IMG/VR virus record: IMGVR_UViG_3300031371_000009
Location: 1 to 40,715 of that record
DNA from: a virus
Reading direction: 5' to 3' (one strand)
DNA: 40,715 nucleotides
The translations under genes were made by a program, and so were the position numbers. Each line of letters begins with the position of its first letter. Within the stretch, counting starts at the first letter, position 1. Under the pieces are notes generated by a model. It worked only from the letters and a program-made list of their open reading frames with translations. It was not told the origin of the DNA and did no database searches. Of the stretch, positions 754-39,950 are shown in pieces.

Positions 754-793
754 TTGACACGTTAAACTAACTATAGTATACTATAGTTAGTTT
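754..793 (+). promoter_or_regulatory. Early promoter with palindromic operator (site 1)
   Basis: The -35 TTGACA (754-759) and -10 TATACT (777-782) are 17 bp apart. The -10 lies in the middle of a perfect 30-bp palindrome (764-793), so a dimeric regulator bound there would cover the -10. The stretch from this -35 to the gene start is copied almost without change at 5179. It drives the gene at 827 and probably the polymerase. Confidence 0.9.
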
Positions 794-4081: not shown

Positions 4082-4120
4082 TTGACAGATTAACTTGAGT
4101 ATAGTATACTTAAGTTAATC
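4082..4120 (+). promoter_or_regulatory. Early promoter with palindromic operator (site 2)
   Basis: TTGACA (4082-4087) and TATACT (4105-4110) are 17 bp apart. A 33-nt palindrome with one mismatched pair (4088-4120) covers the spacer and the -10. It starts 3 bp after the polymerase stop and drives the block from 4141. Confidence 0.9.
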
Positions 4121-4140
4121 TTTTGTTAGGAGGTGAATGC

Positions 4141-4530
4141 GTGAATGATAGATACTTAAGGAATGAATTAGATATTTTACAAAAGGAAGCTAATTTATTA
4201 AATAGTGAATTAGATCGATTATCTAAACAAGAAAATTTTGTTAAAAACAAAAAAACTAAAATATCTAATAGAATCAAGAGATTAGAAGCATTATTAAAAG
4301 AATCACATGAATTAATAGTTACAGATCATGCGATTGTGCGGTACTTTGAACGGTACTTAGAATTTAATATAGAAGATATCAAAGAATCTATATTAAATGA
4401 AGAATTAAAAGAATTAGTAAAGGTTACAGGAAGTTGCAAATATTATAATAAAAATATAGATTGTGAAATTACAGTAAAAAATAATACTGTAGTATCGCTC
4501 TATAAGAAAGGATTAAAAAATGGCAAGTAG
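4141..4530 (+). CDS. Coiled-coil protein with DHAIVRYFER motif (129 aa)
   Basis: The GTG at 4141 is chosen because AGGAGGT lies 6 bases upstream; a TTG at 4123 in the same frame lies before that site. The first ~45 residues form a coiled coil (NELDILQKEANLLNSEL). The rest carries DHAIVRYFERYL and a short beta-rich end, similar to the H-A-x-x-R-x-x-x-R pattern of DUF4258-like phage proteins. Those belong to a small RNase/toxin-like fold, but no activity can be claimed. It overlaps the next gene by 11 bp. Confidence 0.65.
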   Translation: MNDRYLRNELDILQKEANLLNSELDRLSKQENFVKNKKTKISNRIKRLEALLKESHELIVTDHAIVRYFERYLEFNIEDIKESILNEELKELVKVTGSCKYYNKNIDCEITVKNNTVVSLYKKGLKNGK

Positions 4531-4771
4531 AGGGAAAATTAAAAGGTTGAAACTTCAACCGATTGTAAAAGGTGAAATAACACCTGTAGTTAATAGAAAA
4601 TTTAGTAGAAATAAGCTAAAAAAGGCTTTAAAATCTAATAAAATTCAAAAGAAATGGAGAAATTACAAGATTAATTTAAAAGGGCTAATTCCATATTTAA
4701 GAGAATTTAAAGCAACAACAAAGAGTCACTTAAGACCAAAAGAATTAAGGGAACATGGTATTAAAAAATAA
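4520..4771 (+). CDS. Small highly basic protein (83 aa)
   Basis: The ATG lies inside the end of the previous gene, so the two are translationally coupled. The protein is very rich in Lys/Arg (RGKIKRLKLQP, KFSRNKLKKALK) and almost lacks acidic residues, which suggests nucleic-acid binding. No family is recognised. Confidence 0.7.
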   Translation: MASRGKIKRLKLQPIVKGEITPVVNRKFSRNKLKKALKSNKIQKKWRNYKINLKGLIPYLREFKATTKSHLRPKELREHGIKK

Positions 4772-4790
4772 GAAAATGGAGGATTTTTAA

Positions 4791-5009
4791 ATGTTTTACA
4801 ATTTATATAATTTGGAAATAAAAAATATGATACATAATGATGTAACTATCTATGTTAGAAAAAATGAAACTTTAAAACACAGTATTAAAAGACATTTCCC
4901 TGATTATAATGGTGGTGATTTTTTAGCTGACAAGTGCAGTATAGTATTAATCAAGGATATACTTGTTGATGATTTATTCGAATATATGAAGGATTGGGCA
5001 AAACAATAA
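4791..5009 (+). CDS. Hypothetical protein (72 aa)
   Basis: An ATG with ribosome site GGAGG and the recurrent leader ATTTTTAA encodes 72 residues beginning MFYNLYNLEIKNMIHNDVTIYV and ending FEYMKDWAKQ. It looks like a small globular alpha/beta protein. No motif is recognised, and it lies in the site-2 operon. Confidence 0.7.
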   Translation: MFYNLYNLEIKNMIHNDVTIYVRKNETLKHSIKRHFPDYNGGDFLADKCSIVLIKDILVDDLFEYMKDWAKQ

Positions 5010-5178: not shown

Positions 5179-5218
5179 TTGACACGTTAAACTAACTATA
5201 GTATACTATAGTTAGTTT
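5179..5218 (+). promoter_or_regulatory. Early promoter with palindromic operator (site 3)
   Basis: TTGACA (5179-5184) and TATACT (5202-5207) with 17-bp spacing, and a perfect 30-bp palindrome (5189-5218). Sequence identity with site 1 runs from the -35 through the leader and ribosome site to the second codon, about 79 bp, so it is a duplicated promoter-leader cassette. It drives the DEAH helicase. Confidence 0.9.
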
Positions 5219-5251
5219 TTGATTTTACAAATTAAAGGAGATTAGAAAATT

Positions 5252-6782: not shown

Positions 6783-7157
6783 ATGTTTATTTGGATATAT
6801 GATTTATTTATGACAATATTTTTTCCTAAAAAAATTAAATTGTTTGTGAAGAAAGAAAATCCTTATCAAAACTATCATACATATGATAGTTTTGATAAAT
6901 TATTAAATAATGATATTACACCAATAGAACCAATACCAACAGGAACAACTTTAGATGAAAATGTTAATACTGGTATGTCTGTAATTGATAGTTTTGCACA
7001 TTATACACCAGACGATTCTATAACTATAGATCAAGATTCTATAGTTATAGATTATGATAAAAACGGTTATATAATTAATGGGAATTTTATAACTATGGAA
7101 GAAATACAAGATAATGGATTATTTAAATATATTAAATATTTTCATAAAAAGTGTTGA
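6783..7157 (+). CDS. Hypothetical membrane-associated protein (124 aa)
   Basis: An ATG 13 bp after the helicase, behind AAAGGG. The first ~18 residues are hydrophobic (MFIWIYDLFMTIFF) and followed by basic PKKIKLFVKK, so it may be anchored with the rest in the cytoplasm. The body is acidic with repeats of an 'ITxDxDSIVID' kind (SITIDQDSIVIDYD). Its last codon overlaps the -35 of promoter site 4. No family is recognised. Confidence 0.7.
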   Translation: MFIWIYDLFMTIFFPKKIKLFVKKENPYQNYHTYDSFDKLLNNDITPIEPIPTGTTLDENVNTGMSVIDSFAHYTPDDSITIDQDSIVIDYDKNGYIINGNFITMEEIQDNGLFKYIKYFHKKC

Positions 7158-7194
7158 CATTTACACTTAAACATAGTATACTATATTTGTAAGT
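7154..7194 (+). promoter_or_regulatory. Promoter for the tRNA and large RNA (site 4)
   Basis: TTGACA (7154-7159) and TATACT (7177-7182), 17-bp spacer. CACTTA and TAAGTG arms flank the ATAGTATACTAT core. The -35 overlaps the stop of the gene before. The predicted start near 7189 puts the hairpin, tRNA and large RNA on one transcript. Confidence 0.9.
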
Positions 7195-7220: not shown

Positions 7221-7249
7221 GTACTTGTGTATATAATATACACAAGTAC
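7221..7249 (+). repeat. 29-nt perfect hairpin at the RNA 5' end
   Basis: Bases 7221-7234 are the exact complement of 7236-7249, with one central base. In RNA this forms a 13-bp stem at the 5' end of the site-4 transcript, 8 bases before the tRNA. It may protect or guide processing of the transcript; binding by a dimeric protein is the alternative. Confidence 0.8.
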
Positions 7250-8800: not shown

Positions 8801-8838
8801 TTGACAGATAAACTTAAGTGTAGTATACTATAGTTAAG
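8801..8838 (+). promoter_or_regulatory. Early promoter with palindromic operator (site 5)
   Basis: TTGACA (8801-8806) and TATACT (8824-8829), 17-bp spacer. The imperfect palindrome AACTTAAGTGTAGTA / TACTATAGTTAAGTT lies over the -10 with two mismatches. It is almost the same as site 7 at 39483 and drives the small-gene block from 8870. Confidence 0.9.
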
Positions 8839-8869
8839 TTAAGAAATTAAATTTTTGGAGGTAATCTAA

Positions 8870-9232
8870 ATGAAAAAATCAGTTATAACAAGTAGTATAA
8901 TGTATAAGGCACATAGATTGACAAAAGCAATGGTTGCAGAAGATTCAACATTAAATTACAGATTACAATTAGGTATTAATATTAGACATTATCTAAATGT
9001 TGAAAAATCTAACAGAGAATTCAGATTATTACAAATCAGTGCTTATAAATGGATAAAGGATAGAATCAATCACAATAACAACATTCATAGTCAAGAATTA
9101 CATGATTTAATAGCTGATATGAATTATGACTTAAACATCAAAAGATACTATTGGGGCAAGTCTATGACTGCTTGGGAATTAAGTCAAGACTTAGCAACAA
9201 ATTATTCCAGAAATTTAAAATTATATGCTTAG
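8870..9232 (+). CDS. Hypothetical protein (120 aa)
   Basis: An ATG behind TTGGAGG opens a 120-residue helical, basic protein (MKKSVITSSIMYKAHRLTKAM; later YYWGKSMTAWELSQDLA). The arrangement resembles small phage proteins of unknown role. No catalytic pattern or metal site is seen. It is the first gene of the site-5 operon. Confidence 0.75.
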   Translation: MKKSVITSSIMYKAHRLTKAMVAEDSTLNYRLQLGINIRHYLNVEKSNREFRLLQISAYKWIKDRINHNNNIHSQELHDLIADMNYDLNIKRYYWGKSMTAWELSQDLATNYSRNLKLYA

Positions 9233-9251
9233 GAGGTGTAATTAAAAAAAA

Positions 9252-9587
9252 ATGAAAGATCAAATTAGAATAAATTATGAAAGAGAAGTAAATGAACTTG
9301 TAGAACTAGGAAATTCATTAAAAGCAGGTGGAATAAGTATAAAAATAATAGCTAAAACACTTTATGGTTTTAGAAGATTAATAGGTCTTAAATATAAATA
9401 TAAAAGAAATTATGAATATAGAGAAAAAATTTTTGAAAGAAATTTAAAAAAATATGGTGATGTATTAGGACCTAGATTTGAATATTTAGAAAATAAATAT
9501 AATGGGAATTATGAAGAAATAATTAATGCTTCATATAGAGTCAATAATGATTATGAAAAATTAAAAAAAGAAAATAAATTTGAATAA
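9252..9587 (+). CDS. Hypothetical basic helical protein (111 aa)
   Basis: The ATG is preceded by AGGAGGTG located at the end of the gene before, with an unusually long A-rich gap. The product is 111 residues, rich in Lys, Tyr and Glu (LKYKYKRNYEYREKIFERNLKKYG), all helical. No family is recognised; nucleic-acid contact is suggested only by charge. Confidence 0.7.
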   Translation: MKDQIRINYEREVNELVELGNSLKAGGISIKIIAKTLYGFRRLIGLKYKYKRNYEYREKIFERNLKKYGDVLGPRFEYLENKYNGNYEEIINASYRVNNDYEKLKKENKFE

Positions 9588-9609
9588 GATTAGAAAGGAA
9601 CTGATTAAT

Positions 9610-9801
9610 ATGTATTTAGTAATACAAGAACAAAAAATTATAATGGCTACTATGAGTTTTGTTGATATTTTAAAGTTAATTAATGGTAAATCTTCTATTA
9701 TGGATTTAGAAGTAATTGAAATTTCAAATTTCAATAATATAACTAATGATTTGTCTGATTATTATGATGAAGATTGTGGCTGTTATATAACAGATAAATA
9801 A
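9610..9801 (+). CDS. Hypothetical acidic protein (63 aa)
   Basis: The ATG at 9610 follows GAAAGGA at a normal distance; a TTG at 9580 in frame overlaps the gene before and lacks a site. The product starts MYLVIQEQKIIMATMSF and ends in the acidic Cys-containing tail YYDEDCGCYITDK. No family is recognised. Confidence 0.65.
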   Translation: MYLVIQEQKIIMATMSFVDILKLINGKSSIMDLEVIEISNFNNITNDLSDYYDEDCGCYITDK

Positions 9802-9820
9802 ATTTAAAGGAGAGGTAGAC

Positions 9821-9988
9821 ATGAACTTAAAACAATTAAATTCATTAGGACAAAAACTTAATAAATTTACAAAAGGTATTTCAGATGTAAATGCAGTAAA
9901 CGAGCTGGTCAAAGGTAATCCAAGACCAGCAAAAAGAAAAGTAAAAAATAAGATCAAAAATAAGCTTTGGAATAAGTTAGGAGGTTAA
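9821..9988 (+). CDS. Small basic protein (55 aa)
   Basis: AAAGGAGAGG precedes the ATG. The product (MNLKQLNSLGQKLNKFTKG...) ends in a strongly basic tail (RPAKRKVKNKIKNKLW), which suggests DNA or RNA binding. The stop is 3 bp before the next start, so it is in one operon with the zinc-ribbon genes. Confidence 0.7.
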   Translation: MNLKQLNSLGQKLNKFTKGISDVNAVNELVKGNPRPAKRKVKNKIKNKLWNKLGG

Positions 9989-9991
9989 TTA

Positions 9992-10159
9992 ATGAATTTT
10001 AAATGTAGTACCTGTTTTAATAATAAGTTTTTTATTAAAACAGTTGGTAATCATGAAGGGTTGTACTGTAGTAACTGCGGTAAATTCTTTAAATGGGCAA
10101 CTGATTCAGAAACAGACCTTTTGAAATATAGAGGTCAAATAGTAGAGGAGAGTGATTAA
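9992..10159 (+). CDS. Zinc-ribbon protein (55 aa)
   Basis: Two Cys pairs, CSTC near residues 5-8 and CSNC near 26-29, separated by about 17 residues, form a classic zinc ribbon. The ribosome site (GGAGG) lies in the end of the gene before. Small zinc ribbons in phages often bind nucleic acid or host proteins; no target can be named. Confidence 0.75.
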   Translation: MNFKCSTCFNNKFFIKTVGNHEGLYCSNCGKFFKWATDSETDLLKYRGQIVEESD

Positions 10160-10311: not shown

Positions 10312-10345
10312 TTGACAATTATAATTAACTGTAGTATACTATATC
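10312..10345 (+). promoter_or_regulatory. Early promoter (site 6)
   Basis: TTGACA (10312-10317) and TATACT (10335-10340), 17-bp spacer. The operator is the most degenerate of the seven: AATTAACTGTAGTATACTATATCC keeps the core but not the right arm. It drives a 120-base leader and the single-strand DNA-binding protein. Confidence 0.88.
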
Positions 10346-10348
10346 CAA

Positions 10349-10450
10349 GTTAACAAACAAGGCAGTTAGTACAAGATACGAAAAGCTTGTTAACGTAAGA
10401 CCTTAACAAATAGAGGGGTAGTCAATCCCCTCAACCAAAATTATTATAAT
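10349..10450 (+). promoter_or_regulatory. Structured 5' leader of the SSB-like gene
   Basis: About 120 untranslated bases lie between promoter site 6 and the gene. GTTAACAA (10349-10356) can pair with TTGTTAAC (10387-10394), a third TTAACAA lies near 10404 and offers an alternative partner, and GAGGGG pairs with CCCCTC near 10412-10430 without a T-run. Switching pairings suggest RNA-level control, perhaps by the SSB itself. It does not match a riboswitch I know. Confidence 0.5.
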
Positions 10451-13619: not shown

Positions 13620-13859
13620 ATGGCTAGAAGTGCAACTAGAGTTAATTATCAATTAGACTATGAGTATTTTAAAATGATATTATCTAAAAGGAAAATAACT
13701 ATAAAAGATATTGCAAAAATAATTGATGTAGATCATTCAATATTAGGACATAAATTGAGAAAAAGAGATATTCAAATTAGTTATGTATTTGCTATTTTAG
13801 ATGTTTTAGAAATACCTTTTGATGAAATTTTTAAACCAGTGAAAATAAATAAATCTTGA
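13620..13859 (+). CDS. Small HTH regulator (79 aa)
   Basis: AAGGAGGTG precedes the ATG. Residues 16-70 read as an Xre/Cro-type helix-turn-helix: YFKMILSKRKITIKDIAKII, recognition part DHSILGHKLRKRDIQ, then ISYVFAILDVLEIPFDEIF. It lies directly upstream of the late promoters and their two palindromes, so it is the natural candidate for a repressor or switch of the late operon. No integrase is present, so a lysogeny role is uncertain. Confidence 0.8.
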   Translation: MARSATRVNYQLDYEYFKMILSKRKITIKDIAKIIDVDHSILGHKLRKRDIQISYVFAILDVLEIPFDEIFKPVKINKS

Positions 13860-13935: not shown

Positions 13936-14024
13936 AAACAAGTGATGTTTAACAAAATGTTGTAAACATCACTTGTTTGTGCTATAATTTAAAATGTCAA
14001 TAGTTATGTTTAAACATAACTATT
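13936..14024 (+). promoter_or_regulatory. Late promoter P2 with two operators
   Basis: TTGTAA (13960-13965) and TATAAT (13983-13988) are 17 bp apart. The -35 lies in the right arm of a 16-bp inverted repeat (13936-13951/13963-13978), and a perfect 26-bp palindrome (13999-14024) follows the -10. Both contain ATGTTTAA and its complement, so one protein, probably the HTH regulator just upstream, may bind both and block P2. Confidence 0.75.
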
Positions 14025-15867: not shown

Positions 15868-16101
15868 ATGGATATTAAAGATTATAAGGTAGACAAATAT
15901 GGCAAGGTAAGACGTGGTTGGAGTATTAGCGAAGAATCATTTTTAAAACTAAAGGAATTAGCATTTGATAATGATTTGTCGGATAATAAAATGTTAGAAA
16001 AATGTATTCTAGAATTTGGAAGTAAACCAAAGGAAGCTAAGAAAACAAATGTATATCCTAACAAATGTGCCATAAAATTTGGAGAAAATGGATATAAATA
16101 A
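15868..16101 (+). CDS. Hypothetical protein, RHH-like (77 aa)
   Basis: The segment RRGWSISEESFLKLKELAFDNDLSDNKMLEKCILEFG resembles a ribbon-helix-helix unit: a short strand, then two helices. The tail (KPKEAKKTNVYPNK) is basic. It lies between TerL and portal, 15 bp after TerL. A DNA-binding role is inferred from shape only. Confidence 0.6.
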   Translation: MDIKDYKVDKYGKVRRGWSISEESFLKLKELAFDNDLSDNKMLEKCILEFGSKPKEAKKTNVYPNKCAIKFGENGYK

Positions 16102-17520: not shown

Positions 17521-17922
17521 TAAAAAATGTAACCGCTGATAATCAGGGTTACATTTTTTGTAACCCTATCAAATGTAGTTGTATTCATAATTAGCGTATT
17601 AGGGTTACAAGAGGTTACAGAAATTTTTTAAAAGTTGTAACCTACTTAAAAGTAGTCATAGTCTAGCTTTAGACTCAAAAGGTTACAGGGTTACAACTTT
17701 TTATATAAAACAATATATACGAAAAAAAATATTAAAAATAAAATACTATATATATATAAGTATAAAGAAAAAGTTGTAACCCTGTAACTTTGACATCAAA
17801 TCGCACATTGCTCTAAGGCTAGGAGGGTTACAACGAGTTGTAACCGTTTTGTAACCCTAAATTTAAAAATCCTATACATTAGATTGTAACTGGTCTAGAT
17901 AGGGTTACAACTTTTGTAACCC
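17521..17922. repeat. GTTACA/TGTAAC repeat region A (candidate origin or centromere)
   Basis: A 600-base gap between portal and scaffold holds 16 GTTACA or TGTAAC motifs, mostly as GGGTTACAA/TTGTAACCC pairs facing each other with variable gaps. A central AT-only stretch (about 17700-17768) is flanked by a long inverted pair (17682-17702 with 17769-17789). A related copy is region B at 36987-37380, in the same orientation. Candidate roles are replication origin with DNA-unwinding core, partition site, or multi-operator control of the capsid promoter just downstream. Confidence 0.85.
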
Positions 17923-17974
17923 TATATTTTTAAAATTTATTAAAATTAATTGCTTTATTTTGTGCGTAAAACTA

Positions 17975-20503: not shown

Positions 20504-21169
20504 ATGGCTTATACATTAAAAGGTAAACTTGATTCCATTGGTACTGGTCTATCTGGTATAAATTCAGTTGCAAGTGCTATAAACAGTGATATTACTGTAT
20601 TAGATAGTGTTGTAACAGTTCAATCAACCGCAGTTAGTACAATTGGTAGTAGTGCAACTGTTATTAATTCGACTGCAACAGTCTTAGATTCTGTAGCTAC
20701 AGACATTAGTTCTGGAAGTTCTAAAACTGATTCTGTTGGAGTTTTACAAAGCACTGCGATTGTTAAAGCTGATAGTATTGGTGTTTTACAAAGCACTGCG
20801 ATTGTTAAAGCTGATAGTATTGGTGTAGTTGCTTCAACTGGTAATAGTAAAGCTGATAGCATTGGTGTAGTTGCTTCAACTGGTAATAGTAAATCAGATA
20901 GTGTTGGTGTTTTAGTATCAACAGCGAATGCAAAATCCGATAGTATTGGTGTTATTAATTCAACAATCAATAGTAAAGTGTCAAGTTTCGGAACTGCAAA
21001 TGGTTCTAAGACTGATTCTATTGGTGTAGTTGCTTCAACTGGTAATAGTAAAGTTGATAGTGTAGCTGTGAGCTTGTCTACTGCTGATTCTAAAGTAGTA
21101 TCAGTAGGTGTTGCTTTAAGTACAGCATTATCAATAATGGAATCTAAAATTGATTCTGTAGGTGCATAA
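20504..21169 (+). CDS. Ser/Thr-rich 14-residue-repeat protein, putative head fibre (221 aa)
   Basis: After a short start (MAYTLKGKLDSIGTGLSG) nearly all residues form 7/14-residue repeats of the type ADSIGVVASTGNSK or ADSIGVLQSTAIVK. The 42-bp DNA units are nearly identical side by side, so they arose by recent duplication. Ser, Thr, Val, Ile and Gly dominate and there is no Cys or Trp. The regular hydrophobic spacing suggests a trimeric coiled or beta-helical fibre. It lies between head genes and a glycosyltransferase, so it may be a glycosylated decoration fibre. Confidence 0.75.
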   Translation: MAYTLKGKLDSIGTGLSGINSVASAINSDITVLDSVVTVQSTAVSTIGSSATVINSTATVLDSVATDISSGSSKTDSVGVLQSTAIVKADSIGVLQSTAIVKADSIGVVASTGNSKADSIGVVASTGNSKSDSVGVLVSTANAKSDSIGVINSTINSKVSSFGTANGSKTDSIGVVASTGNSKVDSVAVSLSTADSKVVSVGVALSTALSIMESKIDSVGA

Positions 21170-22244: not shown

Positions 22245-22577
22245 ATGAGTTACAATTATACAGATAATACCTCACAATTTCATAGATTGCTTGATAGAAA
22301 TATTAATTCAGCTTTGAATGAAATGGGTAAGTTTGGTGTAAAAAAACTAACTAAACATGCCGCCAAAGATACAGGTTTTATGAGGTCTAGAAATGATTAT
22401 AAAGTAACAATGGGTAAGTGGGTTGACATTGGTAATTATGGCTGTGATTATTCAATTTTCCAAGAATTTGGAACTTATAAAATGACAGGTCAGCCATTTG
22501 TTAGACCAACAGCATTTAATTATCAAAATGATTTTATAAGAATCTTTAAAAGAGAAATAGCAAAAGGAATAAGGTGA
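22245..22577 (+). CDS. Head-tail connector, HK97 gp10-like (110 aa)
   Basis: The segment KFGVKKLTKHAAKDTGFMRSR and YSIFQEFGTYKMTGQPFVRPTAF is the HK97-gp10 signature (DTG.L..S, then E.GT...P.PF..PA). The protein lies at the neck or tail-terminator ring. It starts 4 bp after the glycosyltransferase with a poor ribosome site, so it may rely on coupling. Confidence 0.9.
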   Translation: MSYNYTDNTSQFHRLLDRNINSALNEMGKFGVKKLTKHAAKDTGFMRSRNDYKVTMGKWVDIGNYGCDYSIFQEFGTYKMTGQPFVRPTAFNYQNDFIRIFKREIAKGIR

Positions 22578-33838: not shown

Positions 33839-34576
33839 TCAAATATCTATATATTTAGCAAGTAAATAAATTATGAATCCAATAAATATTATAAACAAAC
33901 TAAAAATTATTTTAAAATAATTATCATTTTCACCAGCTTGCGGTAATACACTACTAGATATAACATTAATCGGTGTTGGTGTTTCTGTTGTAACCTCAGT
34001 AAGTACAGGTGTTACGGTTGGTGTTATAACAGGTGTTGCGGTTGGGGTAGCTGTAGGTTCTATAGTTGGCGTGGCTGTAGGTGTTATAGTTGGTGTGGGT
34101 GATTCAGTAATAACAGGTGTTGCGGTTGGTGTTGGAGTCGGTCCATAGGGTTCAGTTTTAAATCGAAAATAATAATTTATATCATAATTATCATATGGTC
34201 TATATTCAGGATTAAGTTTAATATTTGTTAATACTATATGTGTATAAATGTAGCCATTCCTAACCTTTAAAGGTTTTGTAATTTCCCCTGTCCATTGCAA
34301 AGTTCTATTTTCATCATAACTTTGCATTTTAATATAAATTTCAGGATTTGTCGTAATTTTTGACTCTAAAAGTTTAATCGGTTCACCATTTAATTCTATA
34401 ATAGAATTAAACACAGGTTGAGGGATTATTAAAGTCCATGGAGTCATTTCCTTAAATGTTACCTTATAATTTTGGTCTTCTTGTGCGTAACAATTATTTG
34501 TAAATCCAAATATTACGCACAAAAATATTAGTAATATTATAAAGTAAATTGCAATTCTAAGCTTTTTGTTAATCAT
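33839..34576 (-). CDS. Secreted surface protein with LPxTG-like sorting signal (245 aa)
   Basis: The protein starts with a lipid-like signal segment (MINKKLRIAIYFIILLIFLCVIFGF, predicted cleavage near CYAQ), then a compact domain of about 100 residues (VTFKEMTPWTLIIPQPVFNS). Next is a Pro/Thr linker (TPTPTATPVITESPTPTIT... near 150-205), then LPQAG (211-215), a membrane span and the short end AKYIDI. This is the order of a sortase-anchored wall protein, with Ala where Thr is usual. It would be shown on the infected cell surface, e.g. for exclusion of other phages or as a toxin-like decoration. Confidence 0.75.
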   Translation of the reverse strand: MINKKLRIAIYFIILLIFLCVIFGFTNNCYAQEDQNYKVTFKEMTPWTLIIPQPVFNSIIELNGEPIKLLESKITTNPEIYIKMQSYDENRTLQWTGEITKPLKVRNGYIYTHIVLTNIKLNPEYRPYDNYDINYYFRFKTEPYGPTPTPTATPVITESPTPTITPTATPTIEPTATPTATPVITPTVTPVLTEVTTETPTPINVISSSVLPQAGENDNYFKIIFSLFIIFIGFIIYLLAKYIDI

Positions 34577-36905: not shown

Positions 36906-36937
36906 CCTTTAAACCTCCGTACATTTAATATAACTTA

Positions 36938-36966
36938 ATTATAATACATTTAGTTATAGTTGTCAA
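36938..36966 (-). promoter_or_regulatory. Promoter of the minus-strand cassette
   Basis: On the minus strand TTGACA (36966-36961) and TATAAT (36943-36938) are 17 bp apart. TAACT and AGTTA arms flank the -10, a distant relative of the early operator. It lies 22 bp from the first GTTACA of region B. Confidence 0.82.
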
Positions 36967-36986: not shown

Positions 36987-37380
36987 AAGTTACAAAAAAG
37001 TTGTAACCCTGTTTAATGTACTATTAATCATACATACAGCAGTTGAATTGTTTAGGGTTACAACAGGTTACAGAAATTTTTTAAAAGTTGTAACCCTATC
37101 AAATGTAGTCGTGTTCTTAATCTAACGAGTTAGGGTTACAGGGTTACAACTTTTTATATAAAAAACTATATACGAAAAAAAAATTTATAAAAATAAAATA
37201 CTATATATATATATAAGTATAGAGAAAAAGTTGTAACCCTGTAACCTTAGCACTAAATCATTGATCGCTCTAAGGCTACAAGGGTTACAACGAGTTGTAA
37301 CCGTTTTGTAACCCTAAAATTAAAAACTGTACACATTAGATTGTTACTGGTCTACATAGGGTTACAACTTTTGTAACCCT
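36987..37380. repeat. GTTACA/TGTAAC repeat region B (candidate origin or centromere)
   Basis: Fourteen GTTACA/TGTAAC motifs between the minus promoter and the D5 helicase gene. From about 37056 it is a clear copy of region A: GGGTTACAA, GGTTACAGAAATTTTTTAA, the AT-only core (37149-37225), the inverted pair around it, and the terminal AGGGTTACAACTTTTGTAACC. Modules are permuted: the piece TAACCCTATCAAATGTAGT precedes them in A and follows the first ones in B. The site next to the D5-like helicase is typical for a replication origin. Confidence 0.85.
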
Positions 37381-37461
37381 AAATATTTTGAAAAATCAAT
37401 AATTAGATTTACTTTATAATGGTAATATGTTAAAATTATATTATTGCTTAGGGGATAGAAA

Positions 37462-37486: not shown

Positions 37487-37514
37487 AAAATTTAAAAGCG
37501 GAGGTGTTGTGGTA

Positions 37515-39482: not shown

Positions 39483-39521
39483 TTGACAGATAAAGTTGAG
39501 TGTAGTATACTATAGTTAAGT
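39483..39521 (+). promoter_or_regulatory. Early promoter with palindromic operator (site 7)
   Basis: TTGACA (39483-39488) and TATACT (39506-39511), 17-bp spacer; AGTTGAGTGTAGTATACTAT with TAGTTAAGTTAAG after it is nearly site 5. It starts the block that runs through the join into the RyR gene. Confidence 0.9.
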
Positions 39522-39563
39522 TAAGAAATTAACTTAAATAAATTTTAAAGGAGTTAAAAAAAT

Positions 39564-39785: not shown

Positions 39786-39950
39786 ATGTCTGAAAAAACA
39801 GTTAAGTTGTCAGATATGACACAATATGAATTAAAACAAGTCAAATCAGTTTTCAAAAAATTAAAAATCAATAATGAAGATGATGCAATTATTGGTTATG
39901 CTTTAAGACTGGTACTTAGTATAAATAATACTAAGTTACCATTAGATTAA
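39786..39950 (+). CDS. Small hypothetical protein (54 aa)
   Basis: The leader AAAGGAGATTAGAAAATT precedes the ATG. The product is a helical protein (MSEKTVKLSDMTQYELKQVKSV ... DAIIGYALRLVLSINN), charged at the N-terminus. The last half resembles an oligomeric helix. Not recognised. Confidence 0.68.
   Translation: MSEKTVKLSDMTQYELKQVKSVFKKLKINNEDDAIIGYALRLVLSINNTKLPLD

Follow-up and report, generated by a model that had tools for sequence, protein, structure and literature searches.

Repressor operators that recur across the promoters of a phage genome are already known. In phage P1, the operators of the C1 repressor are scattered and overlap phage promoters, each being an asymmetric 17-bp site, and the phage is temperate. 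The Bacillus phage SPbeta carries SPBRE elements in many of its promoter regions, which are bound by the MrpR protein (PMC10516654). Cluster A mycobacteriophages, such as L5, possess stoperators, that is, many sites per genome for one repressor, including the early lytic promoter (PMC9283540). Small proteins provide another precedent: the ribbon-helix-helix (RHH) protein ParG coats degenerate short boxes with AT-rich spacers at parH and represses itself (PMC7308502), and SvtR and AvtR, RHH repressors of archaeal viruses, act at imperfect inverted repeats and repress their own promoters (PMC5569661). Repeated elements with inverted repeats have also been described as the Cluster K ESAS, which lie just 5' of start-associated sequences (PMC3203893), and the T4-type PeSL cassettes are reported to consist of an early promoter with a stem-loop (cited in PMC4503421).

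Here we consider a viral DNA of 40,715 nucleotides (IMG/VR record IMGVR_UViG_3300031371_000009, the whole of which is the window analysed) in which an element located on the early promoters is real and non-random, and a mechanism of joint regulation can reasonably be inferred from it. As in SPbeta, one element is repeated at many phage promoters and one phage repressor, putative in our case, would serve them; the SPbeta system differs in its 15-bp motif, its tyrosine-recombinase-like repressor and its lysogenic phage, and is not known to show a 5-bp periodicity. With the stoperators the element shares the multiplicity of genome-wide sites that include an early promoter; stoperators, however, are asymmetric, bound by a monomer and also halt elongation, whereas the present element is near-symmetric and confined to promoters. 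The P1 operators are similarly scattered over promoters, the differences being the asymmetry and length of the sites and the temperate lifestyle. Closely spaced short boxes would suit small side-by-side binders, as with ParG and SvtR/AvtR, from which our case departs in box length and spacing and in that an RHH protein is here only a candidate. ESAS and PeSL cassettes resemble the element as repeated, inverted-repeat-bearing sequences before phage genes that are copied as cassettes; ESAS, however, lie 5' of start-associated sequences, whereas the symmetry described below is on the -10. A T4-type PeSL cassette was rejected, because the repeated element comes without a separate stem-loop and its inverted repeat overlaps the -10 itself. 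The half-turn-spaced layout appears to be the unusual part, a variant of a known arrangement.

The genome and its early promoters

The first 127 bases of the record recur at its end, so that this unclassified phage appears to be complete, with a map that closes into a circle of about 40,588 bp; the DNA is AT-rich (28% G+C). It encodes a B-family DNA polymerase (1337), a helicase (5252), a Gp2.5-like single-stranded DNA-binding protein (10472), a P4-type primase-helicase (37509) and an endolysin (12709), as well as terminase, portal, scaffold and capsid proteins. The terminase is nearest to those of Firmicutes phages, and the host, by inference, is probably a Firmicute; among the matches listed, identity to proteins of named phages does not exceed 39%, the top value being that of the terminase to Blautia phage Montmirail. 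A search of phage DNA gave no match to this genome, no close relative was found among viral contigs scanned with the DNA polymerase, capsid, primase and terminase, and inspection of Montmirail for a comparable promoter set yielded none.

The seven exact copies of TTGACA-17-TATACT that had been reported for this DNA were all recovered, each on the plus strand and before early genes. They are found at 754-782, upstream of genes 827 and 1176 and of the DNA polymerase gene; at 4082-4110, upstream of the small genes 4123-5009; at 5179-5207, upstream of the helicase gene; at 7154-7182, upstream of the tRNA-Met gene (7258) and gene 7808; at 8801-8829, upstream of genes 8870-10159; at 10312-10340, upstream of the gene for the single-stranded DNA-binding protein and of the tRNA-Thr gene (11225); and at 39483-39511, upstream of genes 39564, 39786 and 40129. 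Most early genes are driven from these seven near-identical strong promoters. Further full matches, to TTGACA-17-TATAAT, are limited in this genome to 1266 (intragenic), 13856 and 36966 (minus strand). A near-perfect palindrome, GTACTTGTGTATATAATATACACAAGTAC, is located at 7221-7249, just 5' of the tRNA-Met gene.

The seven promoters are not independent, since they have been copied within the genome. Specifically, 754 and 5179 are identical across 80 bp that comprise promoter, leader and start codon and, as one duplicated cassette, are counted once, which leaves six distinct sites; 8801 and 39483 have the right half in common, and 10312 and 39483 the upstream part. The sequence ATAAAAAGYG stands immediately 5' of four of the seven promoters, with a similar stretch at 4082.

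The statement of the preliminary description that all early and replication genes are covered goes too far, as the primase-helicase gene at 37509 is without the element and the minus-strand operon has a degenerate copy alone. In keeping with its observation on the late genes, the element is absent from the late promoter region, where a plain promoter is found at 13856. Two palindromes with common ATGTTTAA arms lie 5' of the terminase genes and 3' of gene 13620, which encodes a helix-turn-helix (HTH) protein, at 13936-13978 and 13998-14024; set around an extended -10 (TGCTATAAT), they are a candidate control site of a late promoter. Elsewhere in the genome, the minus-strand gene at 33839-34576 encodes a protein that begins with a signal-like sequence and contains Pro/Thr repeats, an LPQAG motif and a C-terminal membrane helix; on these features it looks like a sortase-anchored surface protein, and it has a weak NCBIfam match, below cut-off, to an LPXTG family. 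A low-complexity protein with DSIGVVASTGNSK-type repeats is encoded among the head genes at 20504-21169.

Symmetry and periodicity over the -10

The element common to the seven promoters is 30 bp long and consists of six units of the form A-(G/C)-T-W-W, one per 5 bp, which run in a fixed register from promoter position 12, within the spacer, to about the start site, the -10 being units 3 and 4. On the plus strand, this array is found at 765-794, where it is also a 30-bp perfect palindrome over the -10; at 4093-4122 (ACTTG AGTAT AGTAT ACTTA AGTTA ATCTT), overlapping a 35-bp palindrome; at 5190-5219, in a form identical to the first; at 7165-7194, the weakest copy; at 8812-8841, the best one (ACTTA AGTGT AGTAT ACTAT AGTTA AGTTA); at 10323-10352, with a weak palindrome; and at 39494-39523, where the 5-bp periodicity is highest. 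No further copy is present in the genome, apart from a degenerate one described below.

A palindrome centred on the -10 had been claimed for five to six of the sites, perfect over 30 bp in two. The perfect ones are indeed present at 754 and 5179 (15 of 15 pairs matched about the GTATAC centre), although both belong to one cassette; symmetry is also strong at 8801 (13/15) and at 4082, where a 35-bp palindrome with a single mismatch has its midpoint at 4104, displaced by 2.5 bp from the centre common to the others. It is partial at 39483 (11/15) and weak at 7154 and 10312, with 5 and 4 of the 10 arm pairs matched, respectively. Summed over the six distinct sites, 49 of 72 symmetric pairs are matched, as compared to 25.1 ± 3.8 in shuffled sequences, and the arms without the core still give 38/60 against 19.8 ± 3.4; the arm symmetry persists when 754 and 39483 are left out (p = 0.002), and taken singly, 7154, 10312 and 4082 are not significantly symmetric in their arms about the common centre. 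When the centre is moved, matching pairs number 67 of 90 at GTATAC, 46 and 38 at 5 bp to either side, and about 25 elsewhere. Mirror symmetry about two points separated by 5 bp entails a translation by 10 bp.

The self-match of the sites is, correspondingly, raised at lags of 5, 10 and 15 bp (z of 7.6, 4.8 and 3.4), which are the only raised ones among the first 15. With pairs from the -10 core removed, lag 5 yields 70 matches of 132, the shuffles giving 40.6 ± 5.1, and shuffles that preserve the palindromic pairing of each site give practically the same expectation, 40.2 ± 6.1. Conversely, palindromy beyond that due to five-phase composition is modest (36/54 versus 27.5 ± 3.3, p = 0.009). Because the unit is self-complementary, the palindromes largely follow from it, and periodicity and symmetry overlap. 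The periodicity is carried mainly by 4082, 8801 and 39483, and the perfect palindrome by 754/5179; lag-5 periodicity is not significant for 754, 10312 or 7154 singly. The periodic array, a feature absent from the preliminary description, is the better description of these sites than single palindromes.

As the definition of the array unit was derived from the very sites under test, scans of the genome are descriptive, and the test rests on the shuffles and on a control with 120 promoters (see below). Of the best 30 array scores in the genome, 29 fall in the seven promoters and one at 39527, just 3' of promoter 39483; leave-one-out scans placed five of the six sites within the genome's top seven positions. 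In a scan with a symmetric matrix, the seven sites are followed by 36926-36957 with a score of 11.9, a value often reached in random genomes, whose maxima range from 6 to 19. This stretch belongs to the minus-strand promoter at 36926-36966, with the degenerate array AACTA AATGT ATTAT AATTA AGTTA in the same register as the seven. Since it is the sole full-match promoter on the minus strand and the array is in register, it is, judging from its sequence, a possible eighth member of the set.

Promoters of other phages and of bacteria

The TTGACA-17-TATACT core was found in TAGTATACTATA in at least 120 viral stretches, of which 120, 90 of them distinct and some near-duplicates, were used as controls. 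Their lag-5 score is 8.0 ± 2.1 (maximum 13) and their arm symmetry 3.1 ± 1.3 (maximum 6). The six sites 754, 4082, 7154, 8801, 10312 and 39483 score 9, 14, 7, 15, 9 and 16 for lag 5 and 10, 5, 5, 8, 4 and 6 for arm symmetry. Hence, what distinguishes this phage is its flanks taken together, not each site by itself, and the recurrence of one element across multiple promoters within the genome is beyond chance by both shuffles and controls. The full operator pattern was sought in viral contigs, and none carried both arms. Inverted repeats around the same -10 were found in 7 of the 90 distinct stretches from unrelated phages, where 2.2 were expected by chance; as the largest shuffle value was also 7, this excess is only suggestive. 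Such repeats, with quite different arms, were seen in Enterococcus phage Alamo (L140) and in contigs L009, L021, L042 and L089; in Alamo, the -10 is in or beside inverted repeats at 22558, 31997 and 39146.

These comparisons bear on the possibility that the sites are chiefly an optimised strong host promoter of the rRNA/tRNA type, with an A-rich upstream part and optimal surroundings of the -10, which has been copied, with incidental symmetry and with RNA polymerase as the sole binder. The left half of the promoter does occur in bacteria, namely three times at contig ends of Streptococcus vicugnae with AAAAAGTG upstream, in a context read as rRNA-operon-like, and also in S. henryi and, immediately 5' of a tRNA, in a Clostridia genome; cassette copying is evident in the genome under study, and consensus early promoters are also numerous in Alamo and in an unrelated 89.6-kb viral contig, G001, each with its own repeated motifs downstream. 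The 120 control promoters, however, show no comparable periodicity and symmetry, and the signal is carried by the flanks beyond the -10, so that we consider this explanation rather unlikely.

In Alamo, about 12 early promoters are repeated, many with a common downstream TTCATAAGATAAGAGGAGG-like motif, and in G001 (L143-L147) some 40 consensus or near-consensus promoters, about one per small gene, extend over approximately 12-26 kb. Both resemble our phage in having repeated consensus early promoters with common flanks, and differ from it with respect to the triplets over the -10. Three promoters of G001 have a right half, AGTATACTATAATCAAG, similar to that of the array, which a common host factor could explain; the sites would then belong to a host regulator borrowed by the phage. 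We regard this as highly improbable: the left half of the array is not kept in G001, and we know of no host operator that matches the array. Such borrowing does have a precedent in phage GIL01, which uses the host LexA (PMC6182141).

A proposed joint operator and its candidate regulators

Several proteins encoded in the genome could be the regulator. The gene at 39786-39950 (plus strand), inside the operon of promoter 39483, adds to the candidates named in the preliminary description and encodes a 54-aa protein of strand-helix-helix-like layout, in whose model an N-terminal segment is followed by two helices (pLDDT 70). The 77-aa product of 15868-16101 (plus strand), in the late operon, is strand-helix-helix in a low-confidence model (pLDDT 49). 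Searches of both against Pfam, PHROGs, NCBIfam and PF01402 gave no match to an RHH family, both being short orphans without homologues, and a fold search against the PDB gave no match either, which is not proof of absence. Either may be proposed as a candidate regulator of the array. The 79-aa Cro/CI-type HTH protein encoded at 13620-13859 (plus strand), between the endolysin and terminase genes, matches a PHROG of transcriptional repressors (E 5e-6) and, below cut-off, Pfam HTH families; by sequence it is a possible regulator, and its gene adjoins the different set of palindromes at 13936-14024. Homologues of the three proteins were sought in named phages, and none were found.

The HTH protein would also fit immunity-repressor operators of a temperate or plasmid-like phage that silence the early genes in the lysogen, as such operators do in P1, L5 and SPbeta. 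The P4-type primase and the iteron-like repeats of this genome would be compatible with an episomal lifestyle. The repeats, rich in GTTGTAACCC/GGGTTACAAC, form a non-coding region present in two copies, at 17558-17935, between the portal and scaffold genes, and at 37052-37394, 5' of the primase gene; the copies are 86% identical over a 348-column alignment, lie about half a genome apart, and are possibly two replication origins or else a packaging or recombination site. However, the proteins that were searched included no recognisable integrase, partition protein or CI-sized repressor, and the HTH gene is placed between endolysin and terminase, beside other palindromes, which makes lysogenic silencing very unlikely in our view.

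Two further interpretations were discarded. An RNA hairpin or riboswitch does not fit an element that stops near the start site, and an Rfam scan of the genome revealed two tRNAs and nothing else. A divergent promoter that would use the self-complementary -10 was rejected because at 754 the opposite strand has no TTGACA at the right distance.

There is, in our estimate, an even chance that the array is, as its sequence suggests, a joint operator through which one phage regulator turns the early genes off together. Of the earlier proposal of a dimeric shut-off regulator bound on the -10, the candidate operator on early promoters is retained as the best reading; a model of just one dimer and one palindrome is less satisfactory, because further symmetry centres lie 5 bp away in both directions and the lag-5 signal persists with palindromy held constant. 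Given these shifted centres and a periodicity that palindromy does not explain, a single 30-bp palindrome for one dimer was rejected as the full account. The operator would, rather, be made up of several self-complementary ACT/AGT triplets at half-turn spacing, and the array would be filled by a small DNA-binding protein of the phage, probably in the form of several dimers abreast. Covering spacer, -10 and start site, this protein would keep the host RNA polymerase out by competition; as the array extends only to about the expected start site, it would function at the level of DNA and not as leader RNA. The early genes would be on immediately at infection and be throttled jointly as the protein accumulates. 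If the regulator is encoded at 39786, the circuit would be autoregulatory; if at 15868, it would be a late-to-early shut-off. That the array represents a new type of operator, with about six half-turn triplets and a small side-by-side repressor on both faces of the DNA that brings about a graded simultaneous shut-off, we deem quite unlikely.

The sites also illustrate that a short self-complementary repeat can mimic long palindromes. Seven or eight promoters with graded operator copies in an orphan phage make up a compact, testable set, and the array may offer a short route to a new phage repressor.
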